From a virus: 64,000 nt of DNA. Below are positions 3,142 through 9,167 of the stretch, piece after piece. Under the pieces are notes generated by a model. That model saw nothing but the letters and a program-made list of their open reading frames with translations, did no database searches and was not told the DNA's origin. Where the stretch lies: the IMG/VR virus record IMGVR_UViG_3300047444_000299, positions 64,001-128,000 of that record; one strand, written 5' to 3'. Within the stretch, counting starts at the first letter, position 1. Each line of letters starts with the position of its first letter. The position numbers were made by a program, and so were the translations under genes.

Positions 3142-3180
3142 CGGGGCTTTACCCGCTATAAATTTATTTGCATCAATCGC

Positions 3181-3236: not shown

Positions 3237-3482
3237 ATGCGAAACCTACTCAAAAAGCTGGATCTGGTAACTGATCAACAAATAGCCGAATTCGTGGATT
3301 CGATCCAACATCATCGATCTGATTGGTTCACCATTGTGACCGTTGGGGCTAACGTGAATTCGGTGCCGAACCTGAATTTTCATTGGGGTAAAGTCGCCCC
3401 GGTGGTCGGTAGTGTGGCCGAAGTTGAACACGGTTATTATCAGAAAATCGTCGCGGTTCTGGATAAGAAGGGTTCGCAATAA
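3237..3482 (+). CDS. Hypothetical early protein (81 aa)
   Basis: Unrecognised. It has a strong Shine-Dalgarno sequence (AAAGGAG) before the ATG. Predicted mixed fold with an N-terminal helix (MRNLLKKLDLVTDQQIAEFVDSI) and later strands. It overlaps the next gene by a TAATG, so the two are probably translationally coupled. Confidence 0.75.
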   Translation: MRNLLKKLDLVTDQQIAEFVDSIQHHRSDWFTIVTVGANVNSVPNLNFHWGKVAPVVGSVAEVEHGYYQKIVAVLDKKGSQ

Positions 3483-3754
3483 TGAAAATGACATTAGAAC
3501 ACTTCGACAAGATCAAAGCGGCCTGTATGGATGTTTTGAAAGCCAACCCGAACGCGGCTCAAGACTACAAAAACGCCGGGTTGTCTGATAAGCGTTTCAA
3601 TTTTGACGTGTACCGGGCTGCCAAGATTGACGGCAAACCATCGTTACGCTTTACGTGTGACGTGCTGTATCCCTACCTGAATGATACCCATATCGGGACC
3701 GCGCTCAAGCTGATCATGGGCAATTCCGGCCTAGGCAAAGACGGTAAGCCTTAA
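3482..3754 (+). CDS. Hypothetical early protein (90 aa)
   Basis: Unrecognised basic protein coupled to the preceding gene (TAATG). The sequence has a helical N-terminus (TLEHFDKIKAACMDVLKAN) and a segment LSDKRFNFDVYRAAKIDGK. Its end lies just upstream of the promoter for the structured RNA at 3793. Confidence 0.7.
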   Translation: MKMTLEHFDKIKAACMDVLKANPNAAQDYKNAGLSDKRFNFDVYRAAKIDGKPSLRFTCDVLYPYLNDTHIGTALKLIMGNSGLGKDGKP

Positions 3755-3758
3755 CCGC

Positions 3759-3786
3759 TTGACACACCGCCAAACGGTGCTAGGGT
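3759..3786 (+). promoter_or_regulatory. Promoter for small RNA
   Basis: TTGACA (3759-3764), 16-nt spacer, TAGGGT (3781-3786) with an extended -10 TG. No protein gene with a ribosome site follows before the terminator. Confidence 0.6.
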
Positions 3787-3792
3787 TGATTC

Positions 3793-3881
3793 TAAGCGTA
3801 CAGGATGTACGCGGCTTGCGGGAGTCCACAACCGCCAGCCATCCCTAGCCCGCAAGGCCCGGAAGCTTTGCGGGCCTTTTT
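3793..3881 (+). ncRNA. Putative structured small RNA (~90 nt)
   Basis: Between a promoter and a strong terminator lie three successive stem-loops. Hairpin 1 is 3796-3812 (GCGTAC/GTACGC). Hairpin 2 is 3813-3840 (GGCT...AGCC with inner GCGG/CCGC). Hairpin 3 is 3848-3875, an 8-bp perfect stem GCCCGCAA/TTGCGGGC followed by five T. The only ATG lies inside hairpin 1 without a ribosome site. It does not fold as a tRNA. Function unknown; an antisense, RNase-decoy or host-regulator role is possible. Confidence 0.55.
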
Positions 3882-3945
3882 ATGGGTTGGATTTGTTGCA
3901 TCAAATAAGGGATTAAAGCAAATGAAATATTGTCATGATTTGTTT

Positions 3946-3974
3946 TTGCATTGCATCAAAACCTATGGTATATT
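3946..3974 (+). promoter_or_regulatory. Class A early promoter
   Basis: TTGCAT (3946-3951), 17-nt spacer, TATATT (3969-3974). TTGCATCAAA at 3951-3960 and again at 3896-3905. It drives the gene at 4092. Confidence 0.65.
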
Positions 3975-4091
3975 GATACTACTCGGGACATATACCCCGT
4001 TTTTAGGGTTTGTGGTCTGGGCTGGTATCAAAAATATTTTGATCTAAACTTGATCTATACAGGGAATTTGATAGAATGAAAGGTAAAGGAT

Positions 4092-7233: not shown

Positions 7234-7268
7234 ATTCTGTTTGGATTCAGATTCGGTTGTGGTATCAT
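7234..7268 (+). promoter_or_regulatory. Class B promoter
   Basis: Box ATTCTGTTTGG (7234-7244) and TATCAT (7263-7268), the same spacing as the other class B sites. The predicted transcription start falls on or next to the ATG at 7275. Confidence 0.75.
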
Positions 7269-7274
7269 AGAAGA

Positions 7275-7865
7275 ATGAAAACAAAATTAGTACAAGGTTA
7301 TGGGATTTACACGAAAGGCGTCTACAAATCTGAGATAGATGGTGATGAGGCTACGGAATATGGAATATGGGCGAGTATGATCAAACGGTGCCGCCCAGAC
7401 GGCAATTTACAATTGAGACAACCTGCATATATAGGCTGCTCAGTTCACCCAGATTTTATCAATTTCCAATGGTTTGCCGAATGGTGCCAATCCCAGATTG
7501 GGTTTGGCCTAAAAGGTTGGGCAATGGATAAAGATATTTTGATCCAAGGTAACAAGGTTTATGGGCCTGATACATGCTGTTTTGTCCCCAGAGAATTGAA
7601 TTTGATGTTAACCCATAAGCGCAAAAATCAGGGCGCGTACCCAACCGGCGTTAGCTATCACAAACAGTCTGGGAAATACAGAACACAGATTCATACCGAC
7701 GGGAAGAATCTGTGTATCGGAAGCTTCAAAACCCCCGAAGAAGCTTCCGAAGCCTATAAGGTGGCGAAGCTGGCTGAAATCCACCGCCAAGCTGACATCT
7801 ATAAGGAACGGATTGACCCCCGCGTTTACGCCGCACTGAAAGCCTATAGATTCGATTCAAAATAA
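7275..7865 (+). CDS. AP2-domain mobile endonuclease-like protein
   Basis: 196 aa. The N-terminal half has the pattern of HNH-type phage homing endonucleases with a WASMIKRC motif, W/F-rich spacing, and DKDIL...GPDTCCFVP near residues 90-110. The C-terminal half (about 121-170: GVSYHKQSGKYRTQIHTDGKNLCIGSF...EEASEAYKVAK) is a typical AP2 DNA-binding domain. Such genes are free-standing mobile elements that cut related genomes. The ATG at 7275 is chosen because the frame upstream overlaps the -10 box, which makes the mRNA nearly leaderless. It lies next to the repeat block, a likely insertion point. Confidence 0.7.
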   Translation: MKTKLVQGYGIYTKGVYKSEIDGDEATEYGIWASMIKRCRPDGNLQLRQPAYIGCSVHPDFINFQWFAEWCQSQIGFGLKGWAMDKDILIQGNKVYGPDTCCFVPRELNLMLTHKRKNQGAYPTGVSYHKQSGKYRTQIHTDGKNLCIGSFKTPEEASEAYKVAKLAEIHRQADIYKERIDPRVYAALKAYRFDSK

Positions 7866-8690: not shown

Positions 8691-9167
8691 ATGATGCAAT
8701 ACAAAACTGTTAAGGGCAACCTGTTTGATTATCTCAAACCGGGTGATGCAATGGTGCATGGTTGTAACAATCAAGGTGTAATGGGATCTGGTATCGCACT
8801 TGAGGTTAAAGAACGATTCCCCGGTGCCTATAGCACCTATCGAAACAAATACGACCTACACGGCCTAGAGCTGGGTGAAATCATACCATATTTTGATCGA
8901 TCCGGTAAAATCATCATCAACGCGGTGACCCAGAATTTCTATGGCAAAGACGGTAAACGGTATGTCAAATATGATGCTGTAGCCGATTGCTGTTACCACA
9001 TCCGCGAAGGCTTCAAAGTCATGCTAGAACCACCAAAAACCCTGTACTTCCCATTGATTGGGGCCGGGTTAGGTGGTGGTAACTGGAATGTCATATCCGA
9101 AATCATCAAATCAGAATTTGATGGTATGACCGGTACGGAATTGGTTTTGGTTCTGAAAGATGCTTGA
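8691..9167 (+). CDS. Macro-domain (ADP-ribose-binding) protein
   Basis: 158 aa, a complete single macro domain. It has the early GNLFDYL, VHGCNNQGVMGSGIALEVKERFP (ribose-binding loop about residues 23-45), NAVTQ and the late IGAGLGGGNW loop, characteristic of the Poa1/ALC1-like branch that binds ADP-ribose, hydrolyses ADP-ribose-1''-phosphate or removes ADP-ribosyl groups. In a phage this could reverse host ADP-ribosylation or remove an NAD-derived signal (inference). Two ATGs in tandem (8691, 8694) follow AAGGA. It overlaps the next gene by 8 nt. Confidence 0.9.
   Translation: MMQYKTVKGNLFDYLKPGDAMVHGCNNQGVMGSGIALEVKERFPGAYSTYRNKYDLHGLELGEIIPYFDRSGKIIINAVTQNFYGKDGKRYVKYDAVADCCYHIREGFKVMLEPPKTLYFPLIGAGLGGGNWNVISEIIKSEFDGMTGTELVLVLKDA

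Follow-up and report, generated by a model that had tools for sequence, protein, structure and literature searches.

The stretch of DNA analysed here, referred to as the window, spans 64,000 nucleotides and corresponds to bases 64001-128000 of a virus record that is 183,070 bases long and whose nearest annotated relatives are the cultured Pseudomonas phages Milchi and Astolliot. Several single small genes lie between positions 3150 and 6500, each with a near-consensus sigma-70 promoter, and a TTGCATCAA/TTGATGCAA repeat, perhaps a common control element, often stands beside these promoters. Farther along, an HNH endonuclease with relatives among phage homing endonucleases and a weak AP2-domain match is encoded at 7257-7865, and a macro-domain protein (PF01661) that may act on ADP-ribose signals is encoded at 8691-9167. 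Among the small genes, a promoter, three hairpins and the gene for a 41-aa protein follow one another on the plus strand (Table 1). The initial annotation had described positions 3759-3881 as an early, free-standing non-coding RNA gene. The elements lie where it placed them, but position 3759 marks the start of the promoter and not that of the predicted RNA, while the term early goes no further than the sigma-70-like promoters present among the small genes.

Table 1. Features of the element and of the gene that follows it, in window coordinates.
Feature	Position	Strand	Description or basis
Promoter	3759-3786	+	-35 TTGACA (3759-3764), 16-nt spacer, extended -10 TG-C-TAGGGT (hexamer 3781-3786)
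Predicted small RNA, ~86 nt	~3794-3880	+	-10 position, UAAGCG block, fold, conservation
SL1	3796-3812	+	GCGUACA-GGA-UGUACGC, 7 bp, GGA in apical loop
SL2	3813-3840	+	Conserved GUCCAC (3824-3829) in loop, proposed seed
Single-stranded C-rich linker, 7 nt	3841-3847	+	AUCCCUA; from the fold
SL3, intrinsic terminator	3848-3881	+	Stem 3848-3875, 11 pairs; T tract (T5) 3877-3881
Downstream 41-aa gene	3922-4047	+	MKYCHDLFLHCIKTYG...; no separate promoter recognisable in the window; may be a target of read-through

The RNA is predicted to be unusually stable. The segment 3793-3881 folds with -44.8 kcal/mol (z = -4.6), a value that none of 200 dinucleotide shuffles equalled, and its minimum-energy and centroid structures agree; moreover, the predicted RNA is more stable than every one of the 4262 other 90-nt windows tested on both strands of the 64 kb. 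The three consecutive hairpins that had been proposed are all present and exceed what chance would give. The terminator stem, initially described as a perfect 8-bp stem followed by a T tract, does begin with eight Watson-Crick pairs and then extends through a G-U, a G-C and a C-G pair. A search with ARAGORN found neither a tRNA cloverleaf nor a tmRNA in the element, in keeping with the earlier remark that no tRNA-like fold is seen.

Related contigs were gathered by a search with neighbouring proteins, and blastn among them then located the element in two independent relatives, L002 and L010/L011 (the fetched loci of the latter two being identical), at about 30% divergence. Among the three distinct sequences (window, L002 and L010), 24-27 substitutions are found per 85-87 aligned bases, along with indels. 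What is kept in all three comprises TTGACA, TARGGT, the UAAGCG block at the predicted start, the order of the three hairpins, the GGA of SL1, the GUCCAC of SL2 and the terminator, and folding each sequence separately gives this hairpin order, with z about -4. The initial annotation had named compensatory mutations in homologues as a point on which the RNA would stand or fall, and paired changes can be read from the sequences: L002 has UGG/CCA and L010 has GGG/CCC as the inner pairs of SL2, and the arms of the terminator vary with their pairing retained. The whole-RNA energy of L002 and L010 is reached by only 7-18 of 1000 random mutants of equal divergence; for SL1 and SL2 without the terminator, a modest test, the figure is 26-120 of 1000. 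Selection on SL1 and SL2 thus appears likely from these comparisons, though not proven. Reading frames through the element differ or are interrupted among the relatives, so that coding conservation is absent. A closing stem between CUAGGG and CCCUAG, which appears when the full 123 nt are folded, was rejected, as it uses bases of the -10 hexamer that would not be transcribed and its register is broken in L010.

The element has a narrow distribution in the sets searched. The covariance search across related phages that had been suggested at the outset recovered the three known contigs and no new member. A pattern loosely describing SL2 and the linker hit 20 viral stretches, and of these the covariance model accepted none beyond the three known contigs. 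The pattern also hit at least 120 bacterial genome contigs, which are regarded as chance matches since they are spread over many phyla, and the three of them tested were all negative. The model also found nothing in 18 genomes of the genus to which Pseudomonas sp. JM0905a belongs, a weak result given that this search had no positive control. A second loose promoter pattern search gave no additional member, and no viral contig matched a DNA pattern for the promoter half.

The promoter deserves separate consideration. The extended -10 promoter initially reported is present at its place, with a perfect TTGACA as -35; the -10 hexamer TAGGGT matches the consensus at 3 of 6 positions and is weak though TG-extended. 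Both hexamers are identical in L002, and L010 has TAAGGT with a spacer of 17, the spacer sequence being diverged. The predicted start at about A3794 derives from the position of the -10 hexamer and from the conserved UAAGCG block. The weakness of the -10, together with the location of the element directly 3' of the upstream gene (3482-3754) in the window and in L002, is consistent with a different origin, in which the hairpins would be the processed tail and terminator of that gene and TTGACA would not be a working promoter; a ~100-nt ncRNA of the phage PhiKZ is also believed to be processed from a 3' UTR (PMC8545117). Such an origin seems quite unlikely for the present element. L010 lacks the two genes that lie upstream of the element in the window, and there the element directly follows a 273-aa gene, whose stop codon is overlapped by TTGACA; with this different upstream gene, TTGACA and TARGGT are nonetheless kept while the spacer changes. 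In addition, SL1 and SL2 exceed what a terminator needs.

On the downstream side, the 41-aa gene is found in all five related records, with a shared MKYxxxLxLHCIKTYG and a hydrophobic C-terminal half, and its product matches nothing in Pfam or PHROG. The homologue of this gene in Milchi and Astolliot is preceded by a HicA-toxin-like gene, and the small RNA is absent from the slot. The HicA-like gene (L165 875-1081 on the minus strand in Astolliot, where it lacks annotation; L166 840-1046 in Milchi) matches PF07927 with an E-value of 0.00087, which is below the Pfam cut-off. Because the upstream genes differ and the HicA-like gene fills the slot in these two phages, the behaviour of the element fits that of an exchangeable small-RNA cassette starting at its own promoter.

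The 41-aa gene lacks a recognisable promoter of its own in the window, L002 and L010, the three closest genomes, and this leaves room for a leader or read-through role. The free-standing character put forward initially is, for this reason, less certain than the non-coding RNA gene itself, which conservation in the relatives supports. The element could then be a structured 5' leader with an attenuator, sharing one promoter with the 41-aa gene, where transcription would usually stop at SL3 and constitutive or regulated read-through would express the gene. Wherever the element is found, it precedes this gene, a point in favour of such a leader. Nevertheless, Milchi and Astolliot carry the 41-aa gene without the element, and L009 has a separate promoter-like site for it. 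A conserved antiterminator mutually exclusive with the terminator, the hallmark of an attenuator leader, has a candidate in the window only, namely CUUGCGGG (3815-3822) pairing with CCCGCAAG (3849-3856), which by eye is not kept in L002 or L010. An attenuator leader is therefore an unlikely account, though one with some claim to attention. The linker (AUCCCU) could also pair with AGGGAU in the Shine-Dalgarno region preceding the 41-aa gene, but neither L002 nor L010 keeps this pairing, and it was rejected.

In L009, from a record in which a neighbouring protein is 88% identical, the 41-aa gene is preceded by TTGACA-16-TATTAT, a hairpin with a GGA loop, a second and long hairpin, and a terminator; the sequence itself bears hardly any resemblance to that of the element. 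Its three-hairpin fold is possible but not certain, at -39.4 kcal/mol versus a minimum of -40.1 kcal/mol. A covariance model of the other sequences found no match in Milchi, Astolliot or the record of L009. The L009 segment may possibly be a very diverged analogue, which is supporting but not decisive.

The reading tentatively favoured, in which we place a little less than even confidence, is that of a phage-encoded small non-coding RNA gene acting most likely in trans by base pairing. As judged from sequence and conservation, a promoter of its own and an intrinsic terminator bound a short structured RNA that lacks a conserved reading frame. An RNA gene with its own start and stop signals is supported by the relatives: at about 30% divergence, where the upstream genes are different and the frames broken, these signals and the hairpin order persist. 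Base pairing in trans is a common mode of action for small RNAs bounded in this way. We infer that host RNA polymerase would start at the sigma-70 type promoter and terminate intrinsically near 3880; in the resulting RNA, SL1 would protect the 5' end, SL2 would display GUCCAC, the C-rich linker would be single-stranded, and a terminator with U tail would form the end. The SL2 loop and the linker would together form the seed for pairing with a host (or phage) transcript during infection. Among the phage translation starts in the window, no target paired better than shuffled segments.

The loops of the RNA also bear on another potential function, that of a virus-made decoy resembling RsmY, RsmZ or CsrB, which would sequester host RsmA/CsrA via GGA hairpins and tune translation, be it of the host or of the phage, as infection begins. 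Like those RNAs, the element ends in a terminator and presents GGA in hairpin loops, in all three of them in the window. A GGA lies in the apical loop of SL1 in four of four sequences (window, L002, L010 and L009), and SL1 of L010 reads ACACGGAUGU, which fits ACANGGANGU, the motif known from work on RsmA/CsrA. Known decoys carry several such sites, whereas L002, L010 and L009 have a single GGA each, so that only one is conserved among the relatives; a phage-borne CsrA was looked for and none was found. Titration of RsmA would also be an odd aim for a phage, since activation of Gac/Rsm restricts phages in P. protegens (PMC11888443). A decoy function is accordingly considered improbable, and the likeness of the SL1 loop to RsmA/CsrA sites may serve only as a lead.

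With regard to known families, Rfam 15 gave no credible match at either the gathering score or a permissive E-value, and a blastn search of 50,697 phage records with the element returned chance matches only. SdsR/RyeB (RF00111) shows a weak overall alignment, with AGCCAU..CCCUAG and then a terminator in common, and was rejected as the family at 16.6 bits and E 2.7, far under the gathering score of 38. Within the limits of Rfam 15, the sequence of the element would thus define a new family, whereas its character is that of a known kind, as phage-encoded small RNAs have been reviewed (PMC12197685). In particular, PreS of lambda, VpdS of VP882 and Esr41 are likewise short phage RNA genes bounded by promoter and terminator, with hairpins and a U tail (PMC12197685); they differ in having no known sequence relation to the element, whose carrier is not known as temperate. 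Two ncRNA candidates have been reported by Grad-seq for the giant Pseudomonas phage PhiKZ, in which a stem-loop RNA of ~100 nt likewise has a terminator at its end (PMC8545117). The PHIKZ298-linked RNA, thought to be processed from a 3' UTR, has two stem-loops (PMC8545117), in contrast to the conserved promoter and three stem-loops described here.

Collectively, well-supported free-standing small RNAs are few in large Pseudomonas-type phages, and a conserved, apparently swappable RNA cassette in a region of small genes provides a concrete candidate that is invisible to protein-based annotation and whose target could be traced by RNA-RNA ligation methods.
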